From a virus: a stretch of DNA of 36,363 bases. Both the position numbers and the translations under genes were made by a program. A model generated the notes under the pieces. The model was given only the letters and a program-made list of their open reading frames with translations. It was not told where the DNA came from and made no database searches. The stretch is taken from the IMG/VR virus record IMGVR_UViG_3300006735_000089, positions 1-36,363 of that record; one strand, 5' to 3'. Below are positions 17,201 through 36,363 of the stretch, piece after piece (position 1 is the first letter of the stretch; each line of letters starts with the position of its first letter).

Positions 17201-18114
17201 AAAGAGGTAAAGTGTTAAGACTATCTGGAGATGGAATAACACCTATATCTGAGGTCGGTATGAGTGATTACTTTAAAAATAATTTAAAAAACAATAGTGT
17301 ATTATTAGGTAGTTTTGACGATAGAAAGTCAGAATATAATTTAACGTTAGTAAACAGTAATAAAACTATTTCTTTTAGTGAAAATGCTAAAGGTTGGGTT
17401 AGTTTTAAATCTTTTATACCTGAAAACGGTGTTAGTATAAATAGTAATTATTATACATTTAAAAACGGTAGGATATGGTTGCATCATAACAACAGTGTAC
17501 ATAATAATTTTTATGGAGATCAGTATGATTCTTATCTAGACATAGTATTTAACGCTGAATCAGACATTGTTAAAAGTTTTGGATCTATGAAGTATGAAGG
17601 TTCTCAAGCTAAAATAACTCAATTTTTAACTCAATCTGTTGTAGATTCTGCTGGTAACACCCTTGTTGTTGATGATGGTGAGTATTATAATTTACAAGAA
17701 AAGAAAGGTTGGTATGTAGAAAGTGGCGAAACTGATTTACAAGAATCCAGCGAGATGGAATTTAAAGAAAAAGAAGGTAAATGGTTTTCAGTTATGAAAG
17801 GTAAATCAACTAGAACTATTAACGATTTAAATAGCTCTGAGTTTAACTTTCAAGGTATAGAAGTGTTGAGCTCTATAAGATCATCAGGACAAACAGATAC
17901 AGCTTCTACCACTACCACTACCACAACAACGACTTCTACAGCTACTACTACAACCGCAAGTAATCCACCTCCACCATCACCGTCACCAGTGCCTGGTTGT
18001 ACAGATGTAAACGCTACAAATTATAATCCAAACGCTGACATTGATGACGGAAGTTGTGTATACACGCCGGTTACTTTCAACATAACAGTACAAGACCTTG
18101 GAGACACAGATTAA
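14275..18114 (+). CDS. Tail stabilisation/muzzle protein, C-terminal part, ending in a Cys-repeat module
   Basis: A 1279-aa protein continuing the muzzle theme. ITGEKSLKSLRNYEVGVVYR followed by DKYGRETPVFTS (about residues 35-65) is the block that normally follows the end of the previous ORF. NQFIAAEKITKDVNPVYGSI, then KLKTRDTNLVAFCEDKVLKI, FGISTNPESYA and RMYFTDKQRGKVLRLSGDGI belong to the C-terminal propeller-like part. The far end has SMKYEGSQAKI and EFKEKEGKWFSVMKGK, then a Thr/Ser linker from residue 1212, PPPPSPSPVP, and a single C-x18-C unit with Cys 1242 and 1261 (GCTDVNATNYNPNADIDDGS). The last unit matches repeats in the secreted protein at 34643 onward. A role as the tail nozzle/muzzle with an exposed C-terminal adhesion module is inferred. 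Confidence 0.75.
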   Translation: MATSSTSSPVLSLATKIKIVANTQSESKSGITGEKSLKSLRNYEVGVVYRDKYGRETPVFTSTNSSFTIPKKLSDHKNSIVANLQNITPSWVHSYKYFIKETSNEYYNVCMDKWYDAEDGNIWLSFPSAERNKIQEDTFLILKKKAGNQDAIYEDVKYKVIDISNEAPDYIKTDYELYGTEADVAVSTATPGSDKITIAWSSTAGDTDWTETVFYDSLLDNDGGATSSTTGFIGWPLENVVLDISTTSGRTGWLDVANMYKDTNLIINLSKPLIGASSTTNTDASGTITSILPTGAGTPTIKLARKVVKNKSEFNGRFFVKIKRDISIDDNIRSVANPSPSINIQQTIQQYYLNTTQSNSDDAFWSSVGERWLIDGASRGQVGTGGGTGLSGPYPEDDGYGIIGDDITSGRGANSAKKSLECTMELTLQKIKDTNKNGYDVSNNKQANQDFLTKISNSNTKFRWKEDPLQHIYRISSVTSSASGNTNGVGILNYGSKNSQRKEKNNKCIRLYIKFKTTGWRLNDTQDNSGTYEFFPEEEGLYPFNYQNQYTPTVGSYTSWDPTKYGYGDYDNISSAYTPSYTANHASTALHSLGQNATFTESVASGLMRSNTLEIVDFSTGDEEPVFTENPAVWETEPKEDKGIDIYYEASQAYPTFLDNKTNELFAPYGSIVTCSDVVGDQGLYLPENTVLYDWGPTGHGGNTLLLNIKTDEIGIIDNTSAVSSTNPVLGDSASTPGGSAPTASVFHNLNLDFIGTELKFTRHDGSYTTARINYFSGWSTSNNFQDGTAPFYVGSSSDFVLLKLDRNITNTKVKLPYFNCYTFGNGVESDRIRDDFNAVRLDKGVRVSTVLETPYKEEYRTNGLIYSGIYNSNSGVNNLNQFIAAEKITKDVNPVYGSIQKLKTRDTNLVAFCEDKVLKIIANKDALYNADGNPQLTASNAVLGNVTTFAGEFGISTNPESYAEESFRMYFTDKQRGKVLRLSGDGITPISEVGMSDYFKNNLKNNSVLLGSFDDRKSEYNLTLVNSNKTISFSENAKGWVSFKSFIPENGVSINSNYYTFKNGRIWLHHNNSVHNNFYGDQYDSYLDIVFNAESDIVKSFGSMKYEGSQAKITQFLTQSVVDSAGNTLVVDDGEYYNLQEKKGWYVESGETDLQESSEMEFKEKEGKWFSVMKGKSTRTINDLNSSEFNFQGIEVLSSIRSSGQTDTASTTTTTTTTTSTATTTTASNPPPPSPSPVPGCTDVNATNYNPNADIDDGSCVYTPVTFNITVQDLGDTD
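17908..17990 (+). repeat. ACN triplet tract encoding a Thr-rich linker, followed by Pro-rich codons
   Basis: The run of ACC/ACT/ACA/ACG codons from 17908 to about 17955 encodes a nearly pure Thr stretch and is followed by CCA/CCT/TCA codons for PPPPSPSPVP. It links the muzzle body to the C-x18-C module. The codons are synonymously varied rather than a perfect triplet repeat, which points to selection on the amino acids rather than recent slippage. Confidence 0.8.
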
Positions 18115-20333: not shown

Positions 20334-20798
20334 ATGAGTGAAAATATAGTTCTTAGTAAAAGAAAAGAAATAAAAAAGCTACAAGATTTATTAATAAAAA
20401 AAGCTGACGGCGTAGATATTGAAGGAGATGGTAAATCTATAGTACACAGCAAGAACTTCCCTTTAAAACACACGTTTGCTGACGGTGTATATATTAGACA
20501 AATGGATATGAAAGCGGAGTCAATGGTTGTAGGAGCTATACATAATCATTTGCACGTGTGGTTTTTATTAACAGGAAAACTAGCTATAGCGACAGAAAAA
20601 ACAATAGAAGAGTTTATATCTCCTTGTTATGTCTTAGCAGAACCAGGTAGCAAAAGAGTTATATATGCTATAGAAGATTCTACATTTGTAAACGTACATA
20701 AAAACCCAAAGAATATAAAAGATATTAAAAAATTAGAAGACGAAATTGTCTCTTTAACATTTGAAGATTATGAAGAATATATTAATAAAAATAAATAG
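20334..20798 (+). CDS. Cupin-fold protein in virion gene cluster
   Basis: A 154-aa protein with a recognisable small cupin core: GAIHNHLHVWFLLTGKLAIA gives H70, H72, H74 and G81, matching cupin motif 1 (HxH ... G), and YVLAEPGSKRVIYAIEDSTF followed by VNVH matches motif 2. Residues 1-40 are basic and helical, and the C-terminus is helical and acidic. Cupins bind a metal in a beta barrel and can be enzymatic or structural; here the neighbours are tail and internal virion genes, so a structural or virion-associated metal-binding role is inferred, with an enzymatic role possible. It ends with the only TAG stop in the window, and the next gene is in the same frame one codon later. A 44-base upstream gap holds a weak ACTATA/TATAGT hairpin (20305-20320). 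Confidence 0.6.
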   Translation: MSENIVLSKRKEIKKLQDLLIKKADGVDIEGDGKSIVHSKNFPLKHTFADGVYIRQMDMKAESMVVGAIHNHLHVWFLLTGKLAIATEKTIEEFISPCYVLAEPGSKRVIYAIEDSTFVNVHKNPKNIKDIKKLEDEIVSLTFEDYEEYINKNK

Positions 20799-20801
20799 AT
20801 T

Positions 20802-21488
20802 ATGAGTTTTGTAATAGCAGGAGCGGCGGTAGGAATTGGTACAGGCGTTACTAAGTTAGTAATGGGTGCTAATCAAAAAAGAAAGGCAAAGGCAGCGCAG
20901 GCTGAAGCTAAATCTAAACTTACAACTCAAATGAACGAGTATATGAGCCAGGAAATTAAAAATCCTTATGCTAACATGGAAAACACTATGGAAGACCTAA
21001 CTGTAAATACCCAAGCGGCGGATTTTGCCGCTCAAAAATCTGAACAAGCTAGAGCTGACATTATGCAAAATATGAGTGGCGCGGCTGGTAGTAGTGGTAT
21101 AGCTGCGTTAGCACAAACAATGGCTAACCAAGCCAGTCAAGAAGCTCAAATGGCTTCGGCTAATATAGCTACTCAAGAAGCGGCTAATCAAAAAGCTGAA
21201 AGAGCAGAAGCTGGAAACATACAGGAGCTACAAAGACAGGGTGATGCTCAGGTTGAAAATTTAAAGAGAGATAGAATGATGACTCAAATAGGTATGACAC
21301 AGGGTGAACTAGCTGCTGAAAACCAAAATGTAGCAGATGCTCAAGCGGCTATGATGTCTGGGGTTGGAGATATAGGATCTGGATTAGGTAGCTTAGGTGG
21401 GCATGCTTCTTCAATGATGGATGAAGGTAAGACATTTGGTGGGAAAACAAGAAAAGAGGGTATGGGCTTTTTTGGAGGAACCTCATAA
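20802..21488 (+). CDS. Internal (ejected) virion protein, Ala-rich
   Basis: A 228-aa protein with a hydrophobic N-terminus (MSFVIAGAAVGIGTGVTKLV) and a long Ala/Gln/Met-rich helical body (ADFAAQKSEQARADIMQNMS, GAAGSSGIAALAQTMANQAS). The C-terminus is Gly/Ser-rich (VGDIGSGLGSLGGHASSMM). The 'GaAGSSGiAaLAQ..aNqasq' block is typical of small internal proteins of podoviruses, as in T7-like and crAss-like phages, that are ejected into the host envelope to help form a DNA channel. It precedes two larger internal-type genes, the usual T7-like order. The membrane-seeking N-terminus supports an envelope-penetrating role. Start 20802 is preferred since it directly follows the previous stop. Confidence 0.72.
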   Translation: MSFVIAGAAVGIGTGVTKLVMGANQKRKAKAAQAEAKSKLTTQMNEYMSQEIKNPYANMENTMEDLTVNTQAADFAAQKSEQARADIMQNMSGAAGSSGIAALAQTMANQASQEAQMASANIATQEAANQKAERAEAGNIQELQRQGDAQVENLKRDRMMTQIGMTQGELAAENQNVADAQAAMMSGVGDIGSGLGSLGGHASSMMDEGKTFGGKTRKEGMGFFGGTS

Positions 21489-21500
21489 TAATAATATAAT

Positions 21501-22997
21501 ATGGCAGAAAATATATACGACACACAAAACACAGACGATAAGAAAAATATAGTTCAATTAAGGGTTGGTACAGCTGAACAATCAATGATCAACGCTGCAT
21601 ATATGGGAGCGAGATCTAAGCCTAATATGATGGAGCACATGAATCTACTTGATCATTTTTTGACTAAAACTAAAGAAGGTTACACTGCTACAAAAGCTGT
21701 ATATGAAGCTAAAAAAGAAGCTGAAAAAGCAGAGCTAGAGGCTCTAATGGAAGATATAGAAATAGATGCTACTAATGTAATTAACATGTCTGGTAGTTTA
21801 CCTAAAGGTTATTTTAATAAAGTTTATAGCCACGTAGAAAGTCTTAGAAACCAATACGCGGAAGCTAAAAGATCTGGAGAAGAACAAAAGGCGGCTGAAT
21901 TAAGAATGCAATTAAATACTTTATCTACTAATATAGGTTCGTTTAAAGAAGGTGTTTTAAACAACGCTCAAGTAATTACTGGTAACGAAGGGATTAGCGA
22001 TTTATCAGTGTTGTCTTTAAGTCAACAAAGAATCGTGGCCGCTTGTAAAGAAGAAAACGCAGAGTTTGTAGATGGTGAAATTGTGTGGAATAACCCTAGA
22101 TACAAACCTCAATATTTAGAAACTGATGACGGTGAGCAAATAGAAAACCCGGAGTATGATCCAAATGAAAAACAATATTTTACATTAGATGATTATAATA
22201 AATCTGTAGTTTCTAAAGACTATGTATTTAAAGAGTCTTATTTAACTTTAGAAAAAGAAACAGCTCAAAATGGAGAGATGTTTAGAAACGGTGAGAGTAA
22301 AGAAGATTTTAATGAAGATAATCAATACAAGTTAAACTTAGATAAGGTTACTAAAGAAAATATTCAGTATTTACTAAGAGATGATTTTAACGGAGATATG
22401 ACTTTTGAACAATCTTTAGATCAACATCCAGACATGATGAAGTTTTTTGATTTTAACGAGCTTTCTATTGGAGATGGATTAAGCGCTGAGTACGGTGACG
22501 AAGATGTAGACGGAGATGGCATATTAGATTTTACAGGAGACGTTAGTGAAATACATGACGAAAATACTATTTTTTCAGAAACTTATTTAAACTCTCCGTC
22601 GAATATTGTTAAGTACGACACAGATGGAAATAAAATTGTAACTTGGGAAGACTTTGGGTCAACACCAGAAGAAGCTAGAACAAAACTTATAGAAACAATA
22701 ACACAGCCTGATGCGCGTAATTTTGATTTTAATCTTAGTAGAGGTTTAGTTGCAGATTTTATGACTAAACGACAAAAACAATTGTTTTACAAAAATACTA
22801 AATCTTTTACTTTAAAAGAGATGGTTGCTTATAATAAAAAAGATGTACAGGATTTTATTGACGATGGAGGAAATATAGGTCAATTAAGAGCTTTAGATGG
22901 TGTAACAATAGATGATAAGGAGAGAATAAGAATTGATCTGGCAAAATTTAATAGCAGCTACTATGGATTTACAACATCAACCGGTAATAGCCGATAA
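21501..22997 (+). CDS. Internal virion protein with EF-hand-like calcium loops
   Basis: A 498-aa protein. Residues 1-170 are strongly helical (YEAKKEAEKAELEALMEDIE, EEQKAAELRMQLNTLSTNIG). The middle is acidic. DVDGDGILD at residues 335-343 and DTDGNKIVTWED at 373-384 look like two calcium-binding EF-hand-type loops 38 residues apart; the second has a near-ideal 12-residue pattern with D1, D3, N5 and D12, and the first lacks an acidic residue at position 12. The C-terminus has RGLVADFMTKRQKQLFYKNT. No lysozyme or transglycosylase motif is visible. It sits between the small Ala-rich internal protein and the giant protein, which fits the second internal/cargo protein of podoviruses. Role inferred from context. 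Confidence 0.65.
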   Translation: MAENIYDTQNTDDKKNIVQLRVGTAEQSMINAAYMGARSKPNMMEHMNLLDHFLTKTKEGYTATKAVYEAKKEAEKAELEALMEDIEIDATNVINMSGSLPKGYFNKVYSHVESLRNQYAEAKRSGEEQKAAELRMQLNTLSTNIGSFKEGVLNNAQVITGNEGISDLSVLSLSQQRIVAACKEENAEFVDGEIVWNNPRYKPQYLETDDGEQIENPEYDPNEKQYFTLDDYNKSVVSKDYVFKESYLTLEKETAQNGEMFRNGESKEDFNEDNQYKLNLDKVTKENIQYLLRDDFNGDMTFEQSLDQHPDMMKFFDFNELSIGDGLSAEYGDEDVDGDGILDFTGDVSEIHDENTIFSETYLNSPSNIVKYDTDGNKIVTWEDFGSTPEEARTKLIETITQPDARNFDFNLSRGLVADFMTKRQKQLFYKNTKSFTLKEMVAYNKKDVQDFIDDGGNIGQLRALDGVTIDDKERIRIDLAKFNSSYYGFTTSTGNSR

Positions 22998-23015: not shown

Positions 23016-26000
23016 ATGAGTGATTTAACGACTGTATTAAAAGACTACGTACAAACAGCTAACAATCCTGAATACGGAGGTGATTGGAATATTATTAACA
23101 GTAAATTTCCGGAGTTAGCCAACTTTGATAAACAAGTCTTAAAAGATTATGTTTCTACTGCTAACAATTTTTATTATGGTGGTAATTGGAATATAATTAA
23201 TGGTAAGTTTCCAGAGTTATTTAAACCTCAAAATACTTCAACTAAAATTAACAATTCTGTTAATAAAAAATCAAAAACAACACCAATAAACACAGATCAA
23301 ACATATAGTTATGAAGATTTATATGGAGATGGTTGGGAAACAACTATTGACGAAATAAACAAAAAAGGCCCTAAGGGAGATTTAAAACCTTGGGAGAATA
23401 GACATAAAAGCGAAAACGGGTACGATAAAAGATATTGGAATGAAGATGGTAGTTTAAAAACTGCTGACCAAATGCATGATTATAAAAACAATGAAGACGG
23501 CAGTGGGTTTGGGTTTATCAACTTCAAGAAAATAGAAGAAGAAAACAAAGAAAAAAGAAAGAAACAAGAAGTAAAAGAGGAGTTTGAAAATAAAATCATT
23601 ACCGACGAAGGGGTTGTTGATGAAAAGGAAGATGTTGAGGAAAAGAAATACGATGGTGGTTATATAATATCAGACGAAGAAGAGGCTAAAATACTAAATA
23701 TACAAGACGGCTCGCTTAATCAAAACGCTGAAAAAAGTAGTACATACGCTTACAATAGACAAAAAGAAAACGAGTTGTACGGCTGGAGCGTTGGTGATTA
23801 TAAAGAGTCAGAAAACGTTGTTTCTAATCAAAAAAAATATAAAGAATACAAATACGGAAACGTAATTAAAAGAGTAGAGTACTCTTTAGGTTCTGGAAAA
23901 TATAATAATACTTGGAAAGAAACAGGTAATGTAGATTATAGATATGTTACTGATGACGGTGTTGAAAGAGCGGCTACAGACGAAGAAAAACAAAGTTGGA
24001 TAAATAGAGATTATGTTACTAAAACACATAAAAAAATTCAAAATAAAATATCGTCAGAAAGTTTAAATGAAGATAATTTAAAGTTATTGTATAAAAACCC
24101 AGAGGAATACCTTAAAAATCCTTACTACCATGCTGGTTCTCCTGACGTTGACGTATCAGAACTTAGTGAGCAAGATTTTCTAACGCAAGGCCAAGACATA
24201 GAAGCGGAGGGTGTAGATAAAGAATATGTTATAGAGCAAAAAGATATTGGTAACAAAATTTTTAAGTTTAGGCAAAAAGAAGGTGAGCAAGTTAATATAG
24301 TATATGAAGATTACAAAGGTAAATATAGACTTGGTACAGACGAAGAAGGTAATACAGCTAAGGTTTATTTAGACTGGGAAAACGATACGCCTGCACAAAT
24401 AAGATTAGAGTGGAATCTTTACAGTAAAATAAAGCTAAACCATATTAACAATGAATTAGCTAAAAAATTAATAAAAGAAGGTAAGGAACCTACTGTAGAA
24501 AATTTAATGGAAGAGTTCAAAAAATCTGAATTTTATAATGAAAAGCTTGAAAAGGCTAGAGAACAATGGACAACGGAGTATAAGTACCAGGATCAACAAC
24601 AATATTTAGATTTTAACCAAACAACTTTTCAAAAAGAATTTGAAATAGTAAATGAAGATATACTAGAGAATACTAATAAGTATTTTCAAGAGCAAACAGA
24701 ATCTATTAAAAATGAAATAACAGAAGATTTAACTGTAGAGTTAACAAGTTTATTTGAGCGAGATCAGAGCGGTGACATAGTTGTTTTACAGGATTTAAAT
24801 TGGAATAGTTATAAAGCTGGTGACAATATATCTAAAAAAGATTTAAATAAATATTTTCAATTTAGATTTGAAAACGCATTTTCTAAAAACGAAAATGTAA
24901 AAGACATAAGAAGAGAAACAGAGCAATTATATGAAAATACAGTAAAAAACTTTCAAGAAAAATATAAACCTAGTTATAATTTAATAGGTAACGAACGTTT
25001 AAACAGTATTGGTAATGCCTTTGTATCTACATTAAAAAGATTAGGACACACAGAAGAAAATGCAAAATTATCTGGAACAGAACAGTTAGGTATAATAAAT
25101 TCTATGTGGAAGAAGTTTGAGAAAAAGTTAACTGAAGAGTACAGAGACTCAGATCAAGATGAGTATGGATTGGCAGATTTTCTAGATCAAAGAAAACACG
25201 AGTTTTATACTTACATGTACGACAAGTCTGGTTTAGGTCTTTCGCACAATAAAGACGGTAGCATGTCCGACTATCAAAGACAGTTGATTTTATCTACCAT
25301 ATCGGATAATAACGAGGAGATAATGGAAAAAATATTGCTAGCTGGGTCTGAAGGTGATAATATTTTTGACGCTGGAGATTATACGGGCACTGTGTTTATG
25401 ACCTATGAAGATGGTAGCTCAGAAAACGTAGAGGGTTATTTTGACGCTGGAAAAGTTTATGATGGTGCCGATAGAGTTTTTGAAACTGCTGAAAAAATAA
25501 TAAAACAAGAGCAGTTAGAAGAAGGAGATGTAGATAGTTTTTGGGAGGGTTTTAAATCTAAACCAGCGCATGAATATTTTCCAATACTTGGTAACTTTGG
25601 TGATATAGCTAATAAAAGACAGTTGTTAGAAATTACTGATAAATTAAATAGAGATGGCTGGGAAAGTTTGTCAGATCAAGAAAAAGATATTTTAGTACTG
25701 TATAATATAAAAGCTGACTCAGATCAAAAAATAAAAGATATGTCTAGCTGGACTTATGGCGCGGGTAGATTAACTTCTGACATGATACCTTACGTTGGTG
25801 AGTTTATTTTAACGAGTGGCGCCTTTACGTTAGCTAGAGCATCCGCTTTAAAGGGACTCACCAAGGCTGTTGTCGGATCAGGTTTTTCTGTAGCAAAATC
25901 TCCAGCTACTAAAAACGCTGTTAAATTCGCATCTTGGTTAACTGGTACGTTAGCTCATACTTCTGCTAATCCAAACCATTATATATCTAAGATGTATGAC

Positions 26001-29000
26001 AACATGACTCCAGAAATGCAGTTGATGATGAGTGACGAGGGTGACGAGTTGATTGCCGCTATAACTGAAGAAGGTGATGATGTATTAAAAGCTTTCGCAA
26101 AAGCATACGGTACAACGTGGGCAGAATTTGCTACTGAAAGAATGGGTGAAGCTGTTCCTTTGTTTGGTAAGTATTTAAAAGGAAAATTACCAGATGGTGG
26201 TAAGCAGTTTTTAGAAAGACTTGTTGTGAGTAGATATATTAAAAAAGCTATGGATAAAATGGGTCTTAGCTTTAACGAAGCAGCAGAGCACTTTTTAAAA
26301 AGAACAAAAGACGGTATAGGTTGGAACGGGTTTATGGGTGAGGTTTTTGAAGAAGTTGTAAACCAACCAATATCAAACTTAATAGACGGTAATGATATAT
26401 TTGAAGGTATGGATGATAGGTTCTTTGGCGAGCTATCTATATCTATGGGTACTACCTCTCTAGCCTTTGGTGGTATTGGTATGTTAGCGTCTAAAAGAAA
26501 TAAAAAGAAAGCTGGATACTCAATCACTGAAAATGGTACAACTTTAAATTACAAAACATCTAAAGAGTTTAATGCTGCTTTGAATAAACTAGAAGAGCAA
26601 GGTAAGTTAAACAATGAAAATTATACTATTGAAATAGATATAAATAATGATGTTAATACATTTACAACTACTGAAAATTTATTAAATAAATACAAAGATA
26701 GAAATAACAAAGTTAACAACGTTAAAAAAGATTTCTTTGATTTAGGTTTAGCATCAGAAGTTGAACTTACAGAAGAAGTTGCTCAAGACCAAAATGACTA
26801 CGGTAACTTAACGACCATAGAAGAACAATTAGAAGAAGCGCACCAAGAAAGACAAGATATATTAAGTAGTGATATGTCTGGTAAGGACAAAAATAAAGCT
26901 TTAAGAAACAATCAAAAGAAACTTAAAAACTTAGAACAATCAAAGATGGACATAATAAGTCCATATTTAGAAAGAGTAGAAAAAAAGAAAAGATTTAAGG
27001 CTTACAAAAAGATAACTGAAAATGTAAAAGATCTTAACGAAAAAATGAAGTTTGACACCCAGATAATAGAGAAGTCAACTGGCGAAGGAACTAAAAGAGC
27101 TATATTAGAAGATATAAAAAGACAAATTGAAGAAAACCAAGTAATTATAGATACTCATTCAGACAAGAGAACTCAAGACTATAAAGACCTAGTAAAAAGA
27201 CAACAGGAATTAAAAAGCGATTTAAATGGAGAAGATGTTATGGGTATAAATCCTGAAACTGGCAAACCTTCAAAAAATCCAGAACATGGTTATATACCAA
27301 GCTTTAAATCTCAATTAAACGAAAATCCACATGGTTTTATTAGTAAAGATGGTAAAAATATTTTTATAAATAAATCTAGTGCATTAGCTAAAAATGGAGG
27401 AAATATAAATGTTGCCGCTCACGAGTTTTTACATAGAGCTTTAAAAACTATGGTTGAAAATAATCCTCATACGCAGCTAGCTCTAGGTAGTGCTTTACAT
27501 AAATATGTTATGGCATTAGATCCTAAGGGATACGCTGGAGACTTTAATCGTAGATTACAAGCCTATCAAGATAATAGCACTAACTCTGAAATGGGTAGAA
27601 TTGAACAGGCTTGGATGATGCTACAACAAAACATAGACCCAACAACAGGTAAGCCATTAACAGCTTCTCAAATTAAAAATAAAGAAGTTGAAATGAAAAA
27701 ATTATCTGATAGATATGTTGAGCTTCAAAACTCTTATAATAATGTAATGGCTGAAGAGGCTTTAACTTTACTGTCTGATGCTTTTGCTATGGGTAATTTG
27801 AATTTAAGTAATGGTAGATTAAATGTATTAGGTAAAATATTTGAAAGATTATTAGGTGCTATTGGTGTTAGAGCTAAGTTTTCAACAGGTGAAGATGTTT
27901 ATAACTTTGTAGCTGATTTTTCAGATAGTATACAAAAAGGTGAAGTTAGTAGAAGATTAAGAAAACAATTATCTCAAAGAGCTGAATTAAAAGGACAGTT
28001 AAAAGAAGATAAAACAACACTACAAAAAAGAAAAATAAAACGTTATCAAAACGTACAGTTTTCTAAAGCTGTAAATAAAGATCAAAACGAATTAGGTAGA
28101 GCTGCTAATACTCCAGCTATAATAAAGAGAAATGAAAAATTACAGCAAGATATATTAGATGCGTACGAAAGAGGTGAAACTAAAAGAGATGGTAACGGTA
28201 AAATAATAGTACCTCAAGATATTCAAGATCAATTAGTAGAAAACAATTTACCAAGAGTTACATCTTTAGCAGCACAAGCAGCTAACGTTGGAAAAAATAT
28301 AGAGTTAGAACAAGACAAGAAAAAATTATTTGATGACTTTTTTCCTGAGTATTATATAAAATTAGCTGACTTAGCTAGAACTTACAATGCAGAAAAGGTA
28401 CCGTTCGGTGCTTACATGAACACTTTACTTCCTTTAAAATACTCTGGTATATTAGAAGATTTAAAGAGAGGAGAAATTGAAGCCACGTCTGGGTTAGAAA
28501 AAGCCGCTACGGTAGCCGCTGAAAATGAAAATATAGAAAAAGCTGGGAAATTAATTAAGTTATATAAAAAGTTTGGTAAGTACGCTGAAGCGTATAACTT
28601 AAAAGTTAAAGAAGCTATTAAAGATGGTAAGTTTGATCCAGCAAAAGAAAACATAGGTAGAATAGGTGTTAATACTGTTGATATGTTTCCTAGTATGACA
28701 CAAACTATGTTTGGTGTAATACCTAAGCCAGGCAACCTTACTAAAGGAGATCTTCTTGAGTCTCAAATGTTTGTGAATAAACATATTGAAACTATTAGAT
28801 TAATGCTTCCTCAAACGTCTCATATAGTTGAAAAAATAAATGAAAAAACAGGTAAGCCTTCAATAATAAAATCTATTGGTATACCTAGAAAAGTATTAAA
28901 AAAGTTTTATAATAAAGGTCCTCGTGTCGGTAACGACTATATGTGGATGTTAAAAACTGATATATCTAATAAAGATATACTTGATTTTGCTGGTGTAACA

Positions 29001-32000
29001 GAAAGAGGTAAGCCTAATCTATATAAAAAAGATACTAACACTAGTCAAAACCACAAAGCTATACATGATTTAACTGGAAGAATGATGACTAACCAAGCCG
29101 CTAGAGAATACTTTGTAGAAAACAATATGCCTCTAGAAAACATGGGTACGTTACAAGATTCTATGTCTCAAAATATGTTTAGTAAGACTGTTAATGAAGC
29201 ACCTGTAGGTGATAGAGCTTTATTTTTTGCTGGGCTACCTAAGTTAGGTGAAAATTACAGAAAGCATGGTAACAGTATGAGAAAAGCTTTTAACATGACT
29301 TACGGAAAAGATTTGTTTGGTGATAAGAGAGGAGATGTTATAGAAGATTTAGAGACGTACATAGAGACTTACGAGCAATACGTAGTCGAATCTACTCTTG
29401 CTGGAGAACAAATGTTGACTTTAGAAAACTATATCAACGAGCAAACAATGTCTTTAACTTTTGAAGAAAATTTAAGAAAGATTATAAGGTTACCTAAGGA
29501 TCAGCTTAATTTTAAAGATAAAGATCAAATAGAAAGCACTAGAAAAGCAGTGTCAACTCTTTTAACAGAGAGCAATATAACACCTAACGAAGCAAAAAGG
29601 TTTTTAAGTTTCATGTATAATACTGGTAATATAGGAGGGACAACTTTAATTAAAAATGAAAAAGGAGAACTAGTATATAACGAGCAGCATTGGCAGCAAA
29701 AAATATTAGAAGCTACAGAAAAATTAGAAGTAGCTAAAGCTCAAAAAGACAAAAAGAAAATATCAAAACTTGAAGATAAAATATCTGGTTATGAAAAGAA
29801 AATAGAAGAAGGTGTAACTACTTTAGATAGCCACATATACGGTTTGTTTAAAAACGCTGAAGATTTTAATACGTTTGTTTTAGAAGGAGTAGAAGAAACT
29901 GGTGGGGTTATAGCTCCAAATACAAAACAAGATGTTACTGTTAAGCTAAAAACACAAAAAGATATACAGGCTCAAGAAGATTCTTCTATGAGAAACAAAA
30001 TGTTTTTACGAAAACTTAGTAGTGAGTTAGGAAGGTTAATGAACGAGGGTAAAATAAATAGAAATGATGTTGGTATGATAATGTTGTCGATAGGTAATGC
30101 TGGCATGAACACACCTATAGCCGCTGCTGCTCCAGTACTATACACCACTACTAATCCAACTAAAGAAAGTCATAGATACGAGCATTTAATACCTAGAAAA
30201 ATTATTACTTTATACTTTGCTAACTCTGTGTTAGATGGGAGCGCACAAAGCCAGTTAGAGTTTAATAATATATTAGATCAATTTGGTGTAGCTATAATCC
30301 CTAAAGAACAAGACAAGTTAATAAATGACGTAGGTTATCAATCCGCTATGCCTAATACTTGGATGATAGGCATGGACCCACTAATGAGATATTTTAACCT
30401 AAGAACATTTGGAAAAATAAATTTAGATTTAATAGACGTAAAGACTGGCAAGCCAATAACTAAATATCAAAACTTTAAAAAGGTACACGAGGTACTTGGA
30501 GAAAACCACGACAAAGTAGTTATGTATAATAAAGCTATATTAGCTTCACGTGTAGTTGCTCCATCAAGAGGTATGAGTACTTTTGATTTTGACGAAACAT
30601 TAATAGACAAAGGTGAAAACTTTATTATAGCTATAGACCCTAAAACAGGAGATAGAGTAAAAATATCTTCAGGTAACTGGCCTTTAGAGGGGCCTAATTT
30701 TGCCGCTCAAGGATATGAGTTTGATTTTACAGACTTTGTTAACGTAAGAGGAGGTGTTAAAGGTCCTTTATTTAAAAAGCTTCAAAATCAATTAAAAAAA
30801 TATGGATCTGAAAATGTGTATGTATTAACAGCTAGACCAGCGGAAAGCGCGCCAGCTATATATGAATGGTTAAAATCTAACAACGTTGAGATACCATTAG
30901 AAAATATTACGGGACTAGGTAATAGTACTGGAGAAGCTAAAGCAGAATGGATGCTTGGAAAATTCGCAGAAGGGTATAATGACATGTACTTTGTTGATGA
31001 CGCTCTGCCTAATGTTAAAGCTGTTAAAGATGTTTTAGATCAATTAGATATCAAATCAAGCGTTCAACAAGCTAGACATAACTTTAGTAAAAACTCTAAA
31101 AGAGAGTTTAGTGAGATAATGGAAAACGCTTCTTTAGATTTAAACAGAATATTAGAACAAACAAAAGGTATAAAAGCAGAAGCTAGATTTTCAGCTGCTC
31201 AAGCAAAAATTAGAGGAGGTAAAATAGGTAGATATAAATTCTTTTTACCACCATCAGCGCAAGACTTCAAAGGTTTGTTATATTACTTTGTGGGCAAAGG
31301 TAGAGTTGGAGAAAGACAAATGGCTTTCTTTGACAAAGCTTTAATAGCTCCTTTTGCAAAAGCTATAAGTGAAATTAATTCGTTTAAACAAAACTTAAAT
31401 AATAAATACAAGACAGCGTTAAAAGAGTTTAATGTTAAAGGTTTGTTAAAAGAAAAAGTTGGTGACACAAACTTTACAACTGAACAAGCTGTAAGAGTTT
31501 ATTTGTGGAACAAAGGTGGTTTTGATGTTCCAGGTTTATCTAAAAGAGATTTAAACACATTGATAAGTTTTGTAGAAAGTAATGAAAACTTAGTGGGGTT
31601 TGCTGAAACAATAGGTAGAGCTACAGAACAAGAGGCTGGTTACGTAGAACCGTCTGAATACTGGACAGTAGAGTCTATACTAAGTGACTTGCATGGTCTA
31701 GCTAACGAGATGAAAAGATCGGACTTTTTAGCTGAATGGAAACAAAATGTAGATAATATTTTTTCTGCAGATAATATGAATAAAATTCAAGCCCTATACG
31801 GTAGTAGATTTAAAGAAGCTTTAGAGGACATGTTGTACGCTATGGAATTTGGTACTAGCAAAGAGGGTCGTGGTAGTAGAATTGTAAATGCGTTTAACAA
31901 TTGGGCTAATCAATCTGTTGGTGCTATTATGTTCTTTAATATGAGATCTGCGTTACTTCAAACTATATCTGCAATTAACTTTATAAACTGGTCTGACAAC

Positions 32001-33431
32001 AACCCTTTGAAAGCTGCTATAGCATTTGGTAACCAACCACAGTTTTGGAAAGACTTTGCTATGATATTTAATTCTGACATGCTTAAACAAAGACGTGGTG
32101 GGCAACAACGTGGAGTTAACGAAACAGAGCTTGCGAATGCTGTTGCTGGTAGTAAAAACAAAGCTAAAGCTGCTTTGAGCTGGTTGTTAGAAAAAGGATT
32201 TTTACCTACCCAAATCGCCGATAGTTTTGCTATTGCTTCGGGTGGAGCTTCTTTTTATAGAAACAGATTTAATAGTTATATAAAACAAGGTTATTCTAAA
32301 GAGCAGGCACACGATATGGCTTTCCAAGATTTTCAAGAAAACGCAGAGGCTAGTCAACAGTCTGCAAGGCCAGACATGATTTCACAACAACAAAGAAGTC
32401 CACTTGGTAGATATATACTTGCGTTTAAAAACACGCCAATGCAGTACGCTAGATTGATACAAAAATCTTATAAAGATTTAATCAACCGTAGAGGTGATAC
32501 TAAAACAAATATAAGTAAAATACTATACTATGGCGTAGTGCAAAATTTATTATTTACAGCTCTTCAGTCAGCATTAGGATCAATGATAGGCGACGATGAC
32601 GAAGATGACGCTTTTGATTGGGAAAGAGTTACTAACAGCATGCTAGACAACTACTTGGGTGGTCTTGGTTTAGGTGGCCAAGCGACAGTTACTTTAAAAA
32701 ATACAGTACAAGAATTTTTAAAACAAGAAGAAAAGGAATGGAATTCTGATCACGCTTACACTTTGTTAAGGTTGTTTGGATTGTCCCCAACTATAGGCTC
32801 TAAGGGTAGAAAAATATATTCAGCTATACAAACGAATAGGTTTAATAAAGAAATCATGCAAGAGATGAGTTTGTTGAATGTTGACAACCCTGCTTACTCT
32901 ATATTTGGTAATATTGTATCTGCTTTATTTAACGTTCCTTTAGATAGACTTGTTAAAAAAGTAGATAATATAGATGTTGCTATAACACAAGATATAAGCA
33001 ACTGGCAAAGAATGGCTTTAATGATGGGTTGGAGTACTTGGGATTTAGGTATTAAAGATCAAGATATATTAGAAATAAAGGAAGACATAAAAGAAAGAAA
33101 AAAACTAGAGAATAAAGAAAAGCAAAAAAAGAAGAAAAAAGAAAAAGAAAAAGAAAAAGAAAAAGAAAACCTACAACTAGAGAAACAAAATTTTGAACTA
33201 CAAGATAAAGAAAAAGACAAAGGTGATAAAGTTTTATGTGCTGCTATTAGCAAGAAAGGCAACAGATGTAAACGGGAAGTTCTTGAGGGGAAAAGATACT
33301 GTACAGTACATGAAAAAGTAGAAAAAAATAAAACTGGAGAAAAAGTACAGTGTAAAAAAATAAAGTCTGACGGTGATAGATGTAAGATGAAAACTAGTAA
33401 CACAAGCGGTTTATGTTACTATCATGATTAA
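23016..33431 (+). CDS. Giant multi-domain virion (polyvalent/cargo) protein
   Basis: A 3471-aa protein, over a quarter of the window, with no stop interruption. Domains in order: two LKDYV.TANN..YGG.WNIIN.KFPEL repeats at 8-34 and 42-68; a long acidic/helical N-terminal third; hydrophobic stretches around 930-960 and 1139-1158; HEFLH at 1469-1473 (zincin metallopeptidase motif) with EE at 1580-1581 as candidate third ligands; a sigma-70-region-2-like stretch at about 1704-1835; FDFDETL at 2523-2529, LTARP near 2605 and VDD at 2660-2662 (HAD-like phosphatase); an LPD38-like block (IMFFNMRSALLQTISAINFI) at about 2950-3230; a Lys/Glu-rich coiled coil; and two C-x9-C-x10-C-x2-H modules at 3408-3432 and 3446-3470. 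Domain mixing like this matches large polyvalent phage proteins ejected into the host with the genome. Individual activities are predicted, not shown. Confidence 0.78.
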   Translation: MSDLTTVLKDYVQTANNPEYGGDWNIINSKFPELANFDKQVLKDYVSTANNFYYGGNWNIINGKFPELFKPQNTSTKINNSVNKKSKTTPINTDQTYSYEDLYGDGWETTIDEINKKGPKGDLKPWENRHKSENGYDKRYWNEDGSLKTADQMHDYKNNEDGSGFGFINFKKIEEENKEKRKKQEVKEEFENKIITDEGVVDEKEDVEEKKYDGGYIISDEEEAKILNIQDGSLNQNAEKSSTYAYNRQKENELYGWSVGDYKESENVVSNQKKYKEYKYGNVIKRVEYSLGSGKYNNTWKETGNVDYRYVTDDGVERAATDEEKQSWINRDYVTKTHKKIQNKISSESLNEDNLKLLYKNPEEYLKNPYYHAGSPDVDVSELSEQDFLTQGQDIEAEGVDKEYVIEQKDIGNKIFKFRQKEGEQVNIVYEDYKGKYRLGTDEEGNTAKVYLDWENDTPAQIRLEWNLYSKIKLNHINNELAKKLIKEGKEPTVENLMEEFKKSEFYNEKLEKAREQWTTEYKYQDQQQYLDFNQTTFQKEFEIVNEDILENTNKYFQEQTESIKNEITEDLTVELTSLFERDQSGDIVVLQDLNWNSYKAGDNISKKDLNKYFQFRFENAFSKNENVKDIRRETEQLYENTVKNFQEKYKPSYNLIGNERLNSIGNAFVSTLKRLGHTEENAKLSGTEQLGIINSMWKKFEKKLTEEYRDSDQDEYGLADFLDQRKHEFYTYMYDKSGLGLSHNKDGSMSDYQRQLILSTISDNNEEIMEKILLAGSEGDNIFDAGDYTGTVFMTYEDGSSENVEGYFDAGKVYDGADRVFETAEKIIKQEQLEEGDVDSFWEGFKSKPAHEYFPILGNFGDIANKRQLLEITDKLNRDGWESLSDQEKDILVLYNIKADSDQKIKDMSSWTYGAGRLTSDMIPYVGEFILTSGAFTLARASALKGLTKAVVGSGFSVAKSPATKNAVKFASWLTGTLAHTSANPNHYISKMYDNMTPEMQLMMSDEGDELIAAITEEGDDVLKAFAKAYGTTWAEFATERMGEAVPLFGKYLKGKLPDGGKQFLERLVVSRYIKKAMDKMGLSFNEAAEHFLKRTKDGIGWNGFMGEVFEEVVNQPISNLIDGNDIFEGMDDRFFGELSISMGTTSLAFGGIGMLASKRNKKKAGYSITENGTTLNYKTSKEFNAALNKLEEQGKLNNENYTIEIDINNDVNTFTTTENLLNKYKDRNNKVNNVKKDFFDLGLASEVELTEEVAQDQNDYGNLTTIEEQLEEAHQERQDILSSDMSGKDKNKALRNNQKKLKNLEQSKMDIISPYLERVEKKKRFKAYKKITENVKDLNEKMKFDTQIIEKSTGEGTKRAILEDIKRQIEENQVIIDTHSDKRTQDYKDLVKRQQELKSDLNGEDVMGINPETGKPSKNPEHGYIPSFKSQLNENPHGFISKDGKNIFINKSSALAKNGGNINVAAHEFLHRALKTMVENNPHTQLALGSALHKYVMALDPKGYAGDFNRRLQAYQDNSTNSEMGRIEQAWMMLQQNIDPTTGKPLTASQIKNKEVEMKKLSDRYVELQNSYNNVMAEEALTLLSDAFAMGNLNLSNGRLNVLGKIFERLLGAIGVRAKFSTGEDVYNFVADFSDSIQKGEVSRRLRKQLSQRAELKGQLKEDKTTLQKRKIKRYQNVQFSKAVNKDQNELGRAANTPAIIKRNEKLQQDILDAYERGETKRDGNGKIIVPQDIQDQLVENNLPRVTSLAAQAANVGKNIELEQDKKKLFDDFFPEYYIKLADLARTYNAEKVPFGAYMNTLLPLKYSGILEDLKRGEIEATSGLEKAATVAAENENIEKAGKLIKLYKKFGKYAEAYNLKVKEAIKDGKFDPAKENIGRIGVNTVDMFPSMTQTMFGVIPKPGNLTKGDLLESQMFVNKHIETIRLMLPQTSHIVEKINEKTGKPSIIKSIGIPRKVLKKFYNKGPRVGNDYMWMLKTDISNKDILDFAGVTERGKPNLYKKDTNTSQNHKAIHDLTGRMMTNQAAREYFVENNMPLENMGTLQDSMSQNMFSKTVNEAPVGDRALFFAGLPKLGENYRKHGNSMRKAFNMTYGKDLFGDKRGDVIEDLETYIETYEQYVVESTLAGEQMLTLENYINEQTMSLTFEENLRKIIRLPKDQLNFKDKDQIESTRKAVSTLLTESNITPNEAKRFLSFMYNTGNIGGTTLIKNEKGELVYNEQHWQQKILEATEKLEVAKAQKDKKKISKLEDKISGYEKKIEEGVTTLDSHIYGLFKNAEDFNTFVLEGVEETGGVIAPNTKQDVTVKLKTQKDIQAQEDSSMRNKMFLRKLSSELGRLMNEGKINRNDVGMIMLSIGNAGMNTPIAAAAPVLYTTTNPTKESHRYEHLIPRKIITLYFANSVLDGSAQSQLEFNNILDQFGVAIIPKEQDKLINDVGYQSAMPNTWMIGMDPLMRYFNLRTFGKINLDLIDVKTGKPITKYQNFKKVHEVLGENHDKVVMYNKAILASRVVAPSRGMSTFDFDETLIDKGENFIIAIDPKTGDRVKISSGNWPLEGPNFAAQGYEFDFTDFVNVRGGVKGPLFKKLQNQLKKYGSENVYVLTARPAESAPAIYEWLKSNNVEIPLENITGLGNSTGEAKAEWMLGKFAEGYNDMYFVDDALPNVKAVKDVLDQLDIKSSVQQARHNFSKNSKREFSEIMENASLDLNRILEQTKGIKAEARFSAAQAKIRGGKIGRYKFFLPPSAQDFKGLLYYFVGKGRVGERQMAFFDKALIAPFAKAISEINSFKQNLNNKYKTALKEFNVKGLLKEKVGDTNFTTEQAVRVYLWNKGGFDVPGLSKRDLNTLISFVESNENLVGFAETIGRATEQEAGYVEPSEYWTVESILSDLHGLANEMKRSDFLAEWKQNVDNIFSADNMNKIQALYGSRFKEALEDMLYAMEFGTSKEGRGSRIVNAFNNWANQSVGAIMFFNMRSALLQTISAINFINWSDNNPLKAAIAFGNQPQFWKDFAMIFNSDMLKQRRGGQQRGVNETELANAVAGSKNKAKAALSWLLEKGFLPTQIADSFAIASGGASFYRNRFNSYIKQGYSKEQAHDMAFQDFQENAEASQQSARPDMISQQQRSPLGRYILAFKNTPMQYARLIQKSYKDLINRRGDTKTNISKILYYGVVQNLLFTALQSALGSMIGDDDEDDAFDWERVTNSMLDNYLGGLGLGGQATVTLKNTVQEFLKQEEKEWNSDHAYTLLRLFGLSPTIGSKGRKIYSAIQTNRFNKEIMQEMSLLNVDNPAYSIFGNIVSALFNVPLDRLVKKVDNIDVAITQDISNWQRMALMMGWSTWDLGIKDQDILEIKEDIKERKKLENKEKQKKKKKEKEKEKEKENLQLEKQNFELQDKEKDKGDKVLCAAISKKGNRCKREVLEGKRYCTVHEKVEKNKTGEKVQCKKIKSDGDRCKMKTSNTSGLCYYHD
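23037..23219 (+). repeat. Two-copy protein repeat at the N-terminus of the giant protein
   Basis: Residues 8-34 and 42-68 share the pattern LKDYV.TANN..YGG.WNIIN.KFPEL, 27 residues each, with a 7-residue spacer. The underlying DNA has diverged, so the repeat is old and kept at the protein level. It could be a virion-docking or packaging tag; this is inferred from its terminal position only. Confidence 0.85.
33141..33169 (+). repeat. GAAAAA hexamer tract encoding a Lys-Glu coiled-coil stretch
   Basis: About five near-perfect GAAAAA units lie inside the giant gene and encode alternating Lys-Glu, just ahead of the C-terminal zinc modules. Since the unit is six bases long, slippage would change length without shifting frame, so linker length may vary between relatives. 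Confidence 0.8.
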
Positions 33432-33479: not shown

Positions 33480-33764
33480 ATGGCAAAAGAATTAAATGAA
33501 GACACAGGTTTCGTGTTAAGTATAAAAACAATTATAGGATTAGGTTTTGGAGTAGCTACATTAGCTGGCATGTGGTTTACGCTACAAGCTGATATAGCTG
33601 ACGCAAAAGAACTTCCGGTTATACCACCAGATGAAGTAACTAGAATGGAATTTGATATGAAAGATCAAATGATTCGCCAAACTATTATGACAACTCAAGA
33701 AGACGTTACTGAAATCAAGGAAGATATGAAACGTATTGAAGAGAAAATTGATAAATTAAGATGA
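33480..33764 (+). CDS. Holin-like single-span membrane protein (putative)
   Basis: A 94-aa protein with one hydrophobic segment at about residues 17-35 (TIIGLGFGVATLAGMWFTLQ) and a charged helical C-terminus (TQEDVTEIKEDMKRIEEKID) that forms a coiled coil. The N-terminus is short and acidic/polar (MAKELNEDTGFVLSIK). This single-TM plus coiled-coil layout, just after the virion gene block, is common for small holin or spanin-like proteins, but no endolysin is adjacent, so lysis is only one possibility. Its stop overlaps the next start (ATGA), so it is coupled to the thioredoxin-fold gene. A 48-base A/T-rich gap separates it from the giant gene, a possible promoter location with no clear consensus. 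Confidence 0.62.
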   Translation: MAKELNEDTGFVLSIKTIIGLGFGVATLAGMWFTLQADIADAKELPVIPPDEVTRMEFDMKDQMIRQTIMTTQEDVTEIKEDMKRIEEKIDKLR

Positions 33765-34123
33765 AAGATTCAGAGGTTACGTGGGAAATATTTAGCGTAT
33801 ATATGTTAGTTTTAATTTTTATGTTATTTACTGGCGGCGCGTTTGGTCAAATAACGGTTAAGCACTTTAACGCTGGGTGGAATGAAGCTAATGGTGTTGA
33901 TTGGTTGATGGATTTAAAAGACTGTAACACTAAAGGATATATTGATATAGCTAAAGATACAGAAGCGCAGAAAAAATATAAAATAGCAGTTGTACCTACA
34001 ATTATAATATTTAAAGACGGTGAAGAAGTTGCAAGGTTTCAAGCTGACTTAAGTTTTAAGTTGTTGGCAACTAGAGAAGAAGTACAAGAAGAAATTGATA
34101 ATCAATTAATGAGTGATTTTTAA
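33761..34123 (+). CDS. Membrane-anchored or exported thioredoxin-fold protein lacking CxxC
   Basis: A 120-aa protein. Residues about 10-29 are a hydrophobic signal peptide or anchor (IFSVYMLVLIFMLFTGGAFG) followed by Q30, a common +1 residue in Bacteroidota. The rest reads as a thioredoxin fold: VKHFNAGWNEANGVDWLMDL where thioredoxins have 'f.a.WC.pC', KGYIDIAKDTEAQKKYKI, then AVVPTIIIFKDGEEVARFQA containing the cis-proline P79. The active-site CxxC is replaced by residues around WNEANG, and the only cysteine is C55. So the fold is preserved but dithiol redox chemistry is not expected. It may act as a binding or chaperone-type module in the periplasm. The start is coupled to the holin-like gene by ATGA. 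Confidence 0.6.
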   Translation: MKDSEVTWEIFSVYMLVLIFMLFTGGAFGQITVKHFNAGWNEANGVDWLMDLKDCNTKGYIDIAKDTEAQKKYKIAVVPTIIIFKDGEEVARFQADLSFKLLATREEVQEEIDNQLMSDF

Positions 34124-34389: not shown

Positions 34390-34641
34390 ATGAACGAAAA
34401 GAAAATGAAAGAAATATCTAGCCAACTTAAAAAAGCTAGTAACATGCACGCTGGACAAGCTAGAAAAATTGACTCAATGTTAAAAATGAGATCTAGCGCT
34501 TTACCTGGTATGGCTAAATACATGAAAACTCCTTTAGAAAAGAAAAAAGGTATGGATGGTAAGGCTTGTTGGAAGGGATATAAATTACAAGGAACAAAAA
34601 TGAAGGGAGGCAAAAGAGTTGATAACTGCGTTAAAATGTAA
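34390..34641 (+). CDS. Small basic phage protein, unknown function
   Basis: An 83-aa Lys/Met-rich protein. Its N-terminal half is helical (NEKKMKEISSQLKKASNMHA) and the C-terminus ends ACWKGYKLQGTKMKGGKRVD followed by NCVKM. The 'C..Gy...GtKmKgGkrV.NCvk' ending is seen at the ends of various marine phage proteins and may be a short conserved tag-like element; its function is not known to me. The stop is followed by TAATATG into the secreted repeat protein. Confidence 0.58.
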   Translation: MNEKKMKEISSQLKKASNMHAGQARKIDSMLKMRSSALPGMAKYMKTPLEKKKGMDGKACWKGYKLQGTKMKGGKRVDNCVKM

Positions 34642-34642
34642 T

Positions 34643-36363
34643 ATGAAAAAGATATTATTATTACTATTATTACCTTTAATAAGTCTTGCTCAAAAAGAGG
34701 TTGTTATACATATAAAAACAGATAGTTATCCAGGTGAAACTAAATGGACTTTATACAAAGACGCTTATCAAGGAGATACATTAGCACACGTTGATTATGG
34801 TTATTATACTTCTGTTAGCACTATGAATAGTGACACTATTTATATTCCAGACAGTATAACTAATATATCTTTTGTTATGTTTGATAGTTATGGTGACGGT
34901 ATAAATAACGGAGAATATTACGTAACTATATGTGGTGATACAATTATTGATTATCCTGTTAGTACGTTTACTAATGGTTTGATACATAATAGAGTTGTAC
35001 CGCAGTGTATGCCTCAACCACCACCACTACAAATGGTACCTGCAAAAGTTATAATAAATCTAGACCAATATCAAAGTGAAACCAGTTGGGATATAAAAGA
35101 TACAAATGGAACGACTTATGCTTCTGGAGGTGGTTATAATACTCAGCCTGATTACGCTACGGTAGTTGTTCCAGTTCAAATACCAAAAGGGCCTTTAGTG
35201 TTTACTATGTACGATACTTATGGAGATGGATTAAATGGTAGTTTATGGCAAGGACAAGATGGTTCTTATTATTTAAAACAATGTAACGACACGTTGATAT
35301 ACGGGACTGACCCCGCGTTTGGTAACGACACTTCGCATGTGTTTGTTTCTGATTCGTGTCCTCCTATATATGGATGTACAGATAATGATTATATAGAGTG
35401 GAATCCTTTTGCAGATGTAGATGATGGTAGTTGCCAAACATTAAAAATATTCGGATGTGTAGACAGTACTATGTACAATTACGATCCAAATGCTAATACA
35501 ATGGAACTAATAGACACTTGTGTCTACACGTTAATACTACATGATTTAATGGGTAACGGTTGGGTAGGGTCTCATTTAAAGTTAATACATCCTGACACGT
35601 CGTACGAGTTTACTCACACTGGTGGATTTAACGATATATATTATGTAGGATTAACTGCGCCAGACCCTGTTACGTTTAGATTTCATATATCTTCACAAGC
35701 TAGTTTAACAACAATAGAATGTGGTTTTACTTTTATAAATCCAGAAGGTGATACACTTATAAGCATACAACCTCCGTTTATACAACCTTTATTACCATAC
35801 CACATTATAACAAATTGTGGCAACACTTGTGAAGAAAAAGTATTTGGATGTTTAGATTTGTTAGCTATTAATTATGATAGCACAGCAAACACTAGTGATA
35901 GTAGTTGTTATTATACACCTGGGTGTACTAACTCTAGTTACTTAGAGTATTACACACAAGGGTTTGTAGCTGATTATGATGATGGTAGTTGTATTGTAAA
36001 AGCGGTATGGGGATGTATGGATAGTACAGCGTTTAATTATGATTCAACTGCAAACATTGATAATGGTGGATGTGTACCTGTTATATATGGATGTATGGAA
36101 AGTTTAGCCTTTAATTATAACCCGTTAGCAAATACTCCTGACACGTGTATAGCATATCTGTATGGTTGTACTGACCCAACAATGTTTAATTATAATCCAT
36201 TAGCTAACACTGACGACGGAAGCTGTATTGAGTTTGTTTATGGTTGCATGGATTCAACAATGTTTAATTATAACCCTTTAGCAAATGCTCCTAGCAATCT
36301 CGTTCCTTGTATTCCTTATACTTATGGTTGTACTGACCCAAGTATGTCCAACTATAATCCAGA
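34643..36363 (+). CDS. Secreted Cys-rich repeat protein, 3'-truncated by the window edge
   Basis: The frame is open from ATG 34643 to the window end; 573 codons are visible and no stop is reached. MKKILLLLLLPLISLAQ is a clear signal peptide with probable cleavage before Q17, a common Bacteroidota arrangement. Three beta-sandwich-like domains follow, two marked by FDSYGDGINN and YDTYGDGLNG and a weaker one by LHDLMGNGW. From residue 244 there are nine Cys-repeat units (for example GCTDPTMFNYNPLANTDDGS followed by C), the last one cut by the edge. Within most units two Cys are 18 residues apart. Such repeats are frequent in marine flavobacterial exported proteins. It may be a host-surface or virion-exposed adhesion protein, or be acquired from a host; export signal and repeats are seen directly, the role is inferred. 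Confidence 0.82.
   Translation, partial: MKKILLLLLLPLISLAQKEVVIHIKTDSYPGETKWTLYKDAYQGDTLAHVDYGYYTSVSTMNSDTIYIPDSITNISFVMFDSYGDGINNGEYYVTICGDTIIDYPVSTFTNGLIHNRVVPQCMPQPPPLQMVPAKVIINLDQYQSETSWDIKDTNGTTYASGGGYNTQPDYATVVVPVQIPKGPLVFTMYDTYGDGLNGSLWQGQDGSYYLKQCNDTLIYGTDPAFGNDTSHVFVSDSCPPIYGCTDNDYIEWNPFADVDDGSCQTLKIFGCVDSTMYNYDPNANTMELIDTCVYTLILHDLMGNGWVGSHLKLIHPDTSYEFTHTGGFNDIYYVGLTAPDPVTFRFHISSQASLTTIECGFTFINPEGDTLISIQPPFIQPLLPYHIITNCGNTCEEKVFGCLDLLAINYDSTANTSDSSCYYTPGCTNSSYLEYYTQGFVADYDDGSCIVKAVWGCMDSTAFNYDSTANIDNGGCVPVIYGCMESLAFNYNPLANTPDTCIAYLYGCTDPTMFNYNPLANTDDGSCIEFVYGCMDSTMFNYNPLANAPSNLVPCIPYTYGCTDPSMSNYNP
35372..36363 (+). repeat. Tandem C-x18-C repeat array (nine units, last one incomplete)
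   Basis: Units begin with Gly-Cys and contain 'NY[ND]P.AN.DDGSC'. Several, such as those containing MFNYNPLAN, are near-identical also at DNA level (ATGTTTAATTATAA is shared), pointing to recent duplication or gene conversion; others are more diverged (spacing changes in units two, four and eight). One unit is interrupted by the third beta-domain. The same unit is present once at the C-terminus of the muzzle protein (17995-18057). Confidence 0.85.

Follow-up and report, generated by a model that had tools for sequence, protein, structure and literature searches.

Gene organization of the locus

The IMG/VR record IMGVR_UViG_3300006735_000089 comprises 36,363 bases and is referred to here as the window. 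Genes encoding the terminase, the portal and other virion proteins precede a giant open reading frame (ORF). This frame begins with ATG and continues for 3471 residues as a single uninterrupted ORF, as stated in the initial annotation of this DNA. The giant is the third gene of a cassette with the following members.

20802–21488, + strand: 228-residue predicted gp14-like ejection protein, cassette gene 1; homologues in 148 family loci
21501–22997, + strand: 498-residue, fast-evolving gp15-like protein, cassette gene 2, assigned by position; a profile finds homologues in 72 loci
23016–33431, + strand: 3471-residue giant polyvalent protein, cassette gene 3 (gp16-like), defined by its ORF and its relatives

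The window thus contains the T7-type order of gp14-like, gp15-like and gp16-like genes. Ejection cassettes of this type consist of a small conserved gene, a variable middle gene, and a largest gene that is the most variable (PMC8954989). By tblastn, homologues of the 498-residue protein were recovered in only 3 of 80 loci. A profile of the 228-residue protein matches phi38:1 gp99 (E 9.6e-10), phi46:3 gp117 (7.9e-8), elemoC gp22 (4.1e-7) and the elemoE counterpart (1.4e-5), all of which are annotated as structural or virion structural proteins. Within the cassette, virion annotation is confined to homologues of this gp14-like neighbor. In the elemo phages and phi38:1, the gp14-like gene is followed by a protein of 449–549 residues and then by a large ORF annotated as structural (3694 residues in elemoC gp20, 1691 residues in Cellulophaga phi38:1 gp101). 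The gene order supports the earlier placement of the giant in a virion-gene slot, as does the upstream 228-residue protein, whose homologues in cultivated phages carry virion annotations. Direct homology between the window giant and the slot giants of these cultivated relatives was rejected, since BLAST returned nothing and the family module profiles gave no credible match. By sequence comparison, the slot is common to the window and the cultivated phages, while the giant protein itself has no detectable shared sequence. The main text of a virion proteomics study of phi38:1 does not name gp099–gp101 (PMC13288928).

The large terminase subunit (TerL) of the window is 64% identical to that of the Manatee Spring podovirus MW202828, 46% to those of the Flavobacterium elemo phages, 38–39% to those of Cellulophaga phi18:3, phi46:3 and phi38:1, and 32% to that of Tenacibaculum Gundel_1. 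The phi38:1 TerL, used as a query, found a match in all 17 family genomes tested (38–42%). The host of this marine phage probably belongs to the Bacteroidota.

A GroES-like co-chaperonin gene (1712–2293; PHROG 13932, 1e-15) lies directly ahead of the terminase gene, and GroEL and GroES genes also occur in related phages. The 154-residue protein encoded ahead of the ejection cassette (20334–20798) is cupin-like by eye and is kept in 22 related loci. Two small ORFs lie 3′ of the giant (33480–34123), one of 94 residues with a hydrophobic segment, conserved in 45 loci, and one of 120 residues, thioredoxin-like by eye, conserved in 41. Repeated GC-D--A-NY-P-A---DGSC motifs are found in two different proteins, encoded at 34619–36361 and at the end of the ORF at 14275–18114.

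Relatives of the giant protein

Residues 2501–3339 were used as the seed of a first scan against viral contigs, which gave 230 relatives. The best 80 of these were kept; they are 48–87% identical to the window protein in the best segment, with nearly the whole query span aligned. Later searches enlarged the set to 164 giants, or 138 after dereplication. Frames uninterrupted by contig ends range from about 2100 to 4300 residues. HAD-bearing members are over-represented in this set, as the seeds contained the HAD domain; three loci from metagenome-assembled genomes (MAGs; L103, L104 and L106) have retained the C-terminal domain, with no HAD motif seen. A tblastn search of phage records with residues 1401–3471, and with the HAD domain alone, gave no significant cultivated homologue, and the family is known from our searches only from uncultured phages. 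Virion proteomics consequently has no direct bearing on the giant. Many of the MAG contigs bearing a giant are labelled Bacteroidota. Others (L091–L097, L100, L102, L107 and L108) carry labels such as Aliivibrio, Maricaulis, Woesearchaeota and Caldiserica, and are probably mis-binned phage contigs. Another IMG/VR contig (L001) encodes residues 1–1390, with 100% identity in the best segment.

Domain organization

The features recognized within the giant, all on the + strand, are as follows.

23034–23219, + strand: two N-terminal repeats, residues 7–34 and 41–68, with about 80% identity in the translation
26202–26408, + strand: LPD14-like segment, residues 1063–1131; Pfam LPD14 E 3.7e-4, 21 bits (curated cut-off 27)
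27228–28055, + strand: putative zincin-type metallopeptidase domain, residues ~1405–1680, with HEFLH at 1469–1473 and E1581 in invariant columns
28056–28067, + strand: QFSK junction motif, residues 1681–1684, between zincin and sigma modules; enriched at the junctions of relatives
28119–28475, + strand: sigma-70 region 2-like domain, residues 1702–1820, from a 44-homologue profile
28656–29375, + strand: conserved middle domain of unassigned function, residues ~1881–2120; profile match in 44 of 81 proteins
30558–31115, + strand: predicted HAD phosphatase domain, residues ~2515–2700, with D2524, D2526, T2605, K2642, D2661 and D2662
31083–31193, + strand: HAD/C-terminal junction, FSK at 2690–2692 and RFS at 2724–2726, conserved in relatives
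31173–33065, + strand: all-helical C-terminal domain, residues ~2720–3350 (the block initially called LPD38-like), in 81 of 81 compared
33071–33169, + strand: lysine-rich linker, from the translation; an A-rich tandem repeat in the DNA
33237–33311, + strand: zinc module 1, C-x8-C-x10-C-x2-H, residues 3408–3432, from the translation and relatives
33351–33425, + strand: zinc module 2, identical spacing, residues 3446–3470, from the translation and relatives

Several unrelated modules are therefore joined in one chain: a zincin motif, a sigma region 2, a HAD domain and zinc modules. Their chance origin is excluded by conservation in more than 100 divergent relatives. Most of the modules read from the sequence in the initial annotation are upheld, including the N-terminal repeats and the two C-terminal zinc modules. 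The domain order is not unique to the window phage and recurs in a large marine family whose members have gained and lost modules.

The N-terminal half of the giant is poorly conserved among relatives. Conservation is highest in the C-terminal helical domain, with a mean identity of about 48%. Many phage giants in BFVD match the predicted fold of this domain, several of them bearing the name large polyvalent or PolyVal protein; a "structural protein" of Gundel_1 is a weak match. The name LPD38 did not survive: Pfam LPD38 was undetected in the window protein and in 13 relatives, leaving that name unproven, and the region is a very conserved helical domain with a predicted fold of polyvalent type. 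Zinc modules vary in number among the 138 giants (none in 56, one in 31, two in 51), with some of the zeros due to truncated frames. In five relatives (L116, L138, L146, L147 and L148), about 450 additional residues lie between the HAD and C-terminal domains; the extra segment of L116 is bordered by FSK motifs, and a Pfam search with the extra residues gave no match above noise.

Zincin and sigma modules

The HEFLH motif is encoded at 27420–27434. The HExxH signature and the downstream glutamate, a candidate third ligand located 108 residues beyond the last histidine of the signature (window numbering), are invariant in alignments of both 60 and 80 relatives. In the predicted model, HExxH is located on a helix and a later helix bears the glutamate. 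The zincin reading of this motif is thus sustained, and the module has the motif of a zincin-type metallopeptidase, its peptidase activity being putative. A profile of the module matched no solved peptidase in the PDB, and a Foldseek search of the PDB with a 941-residue model of the zincin and sigma modules gave nothing significant, only helical noise.

The sigma assignment proved firmer than could be known from the window sequence. An 18-member profile gave three PDB matches, all sigma factors (E 0.055–0.36), while with a 44-member profile sigma factors account for 29 of 31 matches (best 1.1e-6), identifying the stretch as sigma-70 region 2. Pfam Sigma70_r2 is detected in 3 of the 44 members (best E 0.0081). 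The module is present in 58 of the 138 giants. A whole-protein Pfam scan of the window protein, the only search bearing on this point, gave no promoter-binding region 4. A separate gene of about 250 residues matches Pfam sigma region 2 (E<0.001) in 23 of 27 family genomes tested (e.g. L192–L199). Use of the host RNA polymerase fits the presence of this separate factor in most of these genomes. The phages' own sigma gene was considered as the source of the module and rejected, as the profile similarity is negligible.

HAD phosphatase and nested kinase

The HAD core spans residues 2523–2662, and its six motif residues are near-invariant. Across 113 giants, motif I is found in 112, the T/S motif in 113, the DD motif in 112 and the K motif in 99. 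Pfam assigns DUF2608 to 49 of 57 members and HAD to 9 of 57. In a PDB fold search, HAD structures stand out with probabilities of 0.6–0.8, none with a significant E-value, and a sequence profile of the domain gave no HAD match in the PDB. The assignment is thus supported by Pfam and the fold search, rather than by a PDB sequence profile. These results agree with the HAD-like core proposed initially and indicate a predicted phosphatase that has a Rossmann-like core and intact DxDxT, T/S, K and DD motifs. The window domain also weakly matches PHROG 415, a polynucleotide kinase.

No kinase is found in the window protein, which has the HAD domain alone; the combination of kinase and phosphatase in one chain is therefore restricted to relatives. 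Pfam AAA_33 and Zeta_toxin were detected in 3 of 13 full-length relatives. The kinase P-loop lies about 35 residues past HAD motif I, and an LTARP motif follows the P-loop at a constant distance of 243 residues, indicating that the kinase is nested inside the HAD domain. In the first, window-seeded set, 4 of 80 giants contain the kinase (L068, L077, L085 and L089). The pooled set has 43 of 138, consisting of about 41 nested copies (37 with exact spacing) plus L154 and L155; this count is enriched and is no natural frequency, because the second scan targeted the kinase–HAD segment. In L154 and L155, the kinase is located downstream of the HAD domain, not within it, and that of L154 shares 60% identity with a nested kinase.

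All 37 aligned kinases match both AAA_33 (to 2.2e-17) and Zeta_toxin (to 3.8e-14). In the PDB, the kinase profile is led by bacterial Pnkp (5.3e-4); T4 polynucleotide kinase, zeta toxins, and shikimate and adenylate kinases are also among its matches. It also matches PHROG 505, a polynucleotide kinase (5.9e-10). The matches are thus divided between polynucleotide kinase and zeta toxin.

Pairing of the kinase with an RNA ligase was rejected, as PF09414 matches occur in genomes both with and without the kinase. Three PF09414 ORFs that were inspected (two of 294 and 295 residues and an interrupted one of 198) resemble ATP-dependent DNA ligases. L189 and L190 contain minimal ligase ORFs of about 295 residues that are ATP-dependent DNA-ligase-like by motif. 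Searches with T4 Rnl1 and T7-like RNA polymerase gave no matches, but the controls were likewise silent.

A recurrent motif at module junctions

A short motif recurs between modules. [QKT]FS[KR] occurs 64 times ahead of the HAD domain against 19.3 expected. Of 91 occurrences of the broader form [QKTR][FY]S[KR], 60 fall in two junction windows, one following the zincin and the other just before the HAD domain, against 14.4 expected. The associated probability should be read as indicative, because these windows were selected once the positions had been viewed and the relatives share ancestry; the motif is lineage-correlated, so that its probability overstates independence. The junction between the HAD and C-terminal domains is conserved as VQAK..FSK and GV.A.K.FS.A.A. 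The motif does not mark every module, as it occurs within 60 residues ahead of the sigma start in only 3 of 58 proteins. Its strict form is absent from the non-homologous slot giants elemoC gp20 and phi38:1 gp101.

Proposed function and alternative explanations

The analysis establishes the modules and how well they are conserved, the order of the genes, and the homology of the neighboring protein. We favor, with a probability of roughly 0.6, the joint reading that the window phage is an uncultured podovirus with Flavobacterium and Cellulophaga phages among its relatives, and that the giant is its largest ejection (internal virion) protein, polyvalent in nature and located in the slot of T7 gp16. 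The giant would be packaged in the head and enter the cell along with the DNA. Its conserved helical C-terminus may dock in the virion and pass with the DNA, with exchangeable payload modules ahead of it (the zincin, sigma-70 region 2, HAD and, in some relatives, the kinase); the small zinc modules could be further parts of the payload. Iyer et al. (2017) proposed that zincins process polyvalent proteins, and also that those of phages enter the cell with the DNA (PMC5512222). An ejected polyvalent protein of this kind is perhaps self-processed, the zincin cleaving the chain at the recurrent F-S-K junctions and releasing the modules. The sigma part might then engage the host RNA polymerase ahead of phage gene expression. 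The HAD domain, with the kinase where present, might remove or exchange end phosphates of nucleic acids and so counter a nuclease-type host defense. The full scenario, in which widespread ejected giants redirect host RNA polymerase, heal ends cut by host defenses with the HAD domain and, in some members, a nested kinase, and have their modules released by the zincin at F-S-K sites, is speculative, and we would give it perhaps one chance in four.

The giant could instead stay structural, as an internal scaffold or, in the manner of T7 gp16, a part of the tube for DNA translocation; the zincin would then serve maturation, and no effector would act on the host. The slot and the conserved helical C-terminus suit such a role; T7 gp16 is packaged and also forms a conduit (PMC8954989), and for P1 DdrB zincin processing was proposed by Iyer et al. 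to precede packaging (PMC5512222). Yet the catalytic residues of the HAD and zincin modules are almost perfectly kept while the surroundings of the zincin drift, and the kinase and sigma modules are gained and lost between relatives, as expected of a payload. We regard a purely structural giant as unlikely. Less plausible still is a non-virion polyprotein, made late, cut in the cell and left unpackaged: a zincin with junction motifs would suit a polyprotein, but the giant closes the block of structural genes, in a cassette with homology to those of other phages.

A further alternative touches the phosphatase/kinase module alone and is compatible with the ejected polyvalent protein favored here. 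The substrate of HAD and kinase might be a small molecule, such as UDP-GlcNAc, as in zeta-toxin chemistry, or nucleotides, rather than nucleic-acid ends. The Zeta_toxin scores equal or beat those of AAA_33 in some members, and one BFVD homologue is labelled UDP-N-acetylglucosamine kinase. On the other hand, the kinase domain of bacterial Pnkp is the top PDB profile match, with T4 polynucleotide kinase also listed; PHROG 505 agrees, and pairing with a HAD domain is the polynucleotide kinase/phosphatase combination. A small-molecule substrate is a serious possibility, at about one chance in three, though we lean toward nucleic-acid ends.

Comparison with known systems

The giant resembles the polyvalent proteins described by Iyer et al. 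(2017) in its very large size, the joining of unrelated modules in one chain around a putative zincin hub, its possible LPD-type modules and its virion or transfer gene neighborhood (PMC5512222). The terms "sigma", "phosphatase" and "polynucleotide kinase" do not occur in the main text of that study, nor is a kinase nested in a HAD domain seen there. Two features are new here: the putative kinase, nearly always nested in the HAD domain in the relatives that have it, and the recurrent [QKTR][FY]S[KR] junction motif, which makes the proposed self-processing of polyvalent proteins by zincins directly testable.

The window cassette and T7 gp14/gp15/gp16 are alike in gene order and in the succession of a small conserved, a variable and a largest, most variable protein (PMC8954989). 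The giant is likened to T7 gp16 by position. T7 gp16 has 1318 residues and an N-terminal peptidoglycan-hydrolase domain (PMC8954989), whereas members of the window family are about 2100–4300 residues long and carry other modules. ElemoC gp20 (3694 residues) and phi38:1 gp101 (1691 residues) occupy the same slot after a homologous gp14-like gene, and elemoC gp20 also contains an HExxH motif. However, neither has detectable sequence similarity to the giant or a HAD motif.

The kinase-bearing relatives share with T4 Pnkp, bacterial Pnkp and mammalian PNKP the presence of a P-loop kinase and a phosphatase in one polypeptide. They differ in that the kinase, whose activity is putative, is inserted inside the HAD domain after motif I in nearly all cases, an unusual enzyme layout. 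The N4 virion RNA polymerase, as described by Iyer et al., is likewise a virion protein of very large size that contains a zincin and acts on early transcription (PMC5512222). N4 carries a polymerase, whereas the window giant has a sigma region 2, with no polymerase recognized. If packaged, the giant would equip the host cell with a portion of a transcription factor, and perhaps with chemistry for end repair, ahead of all phage gene expression.
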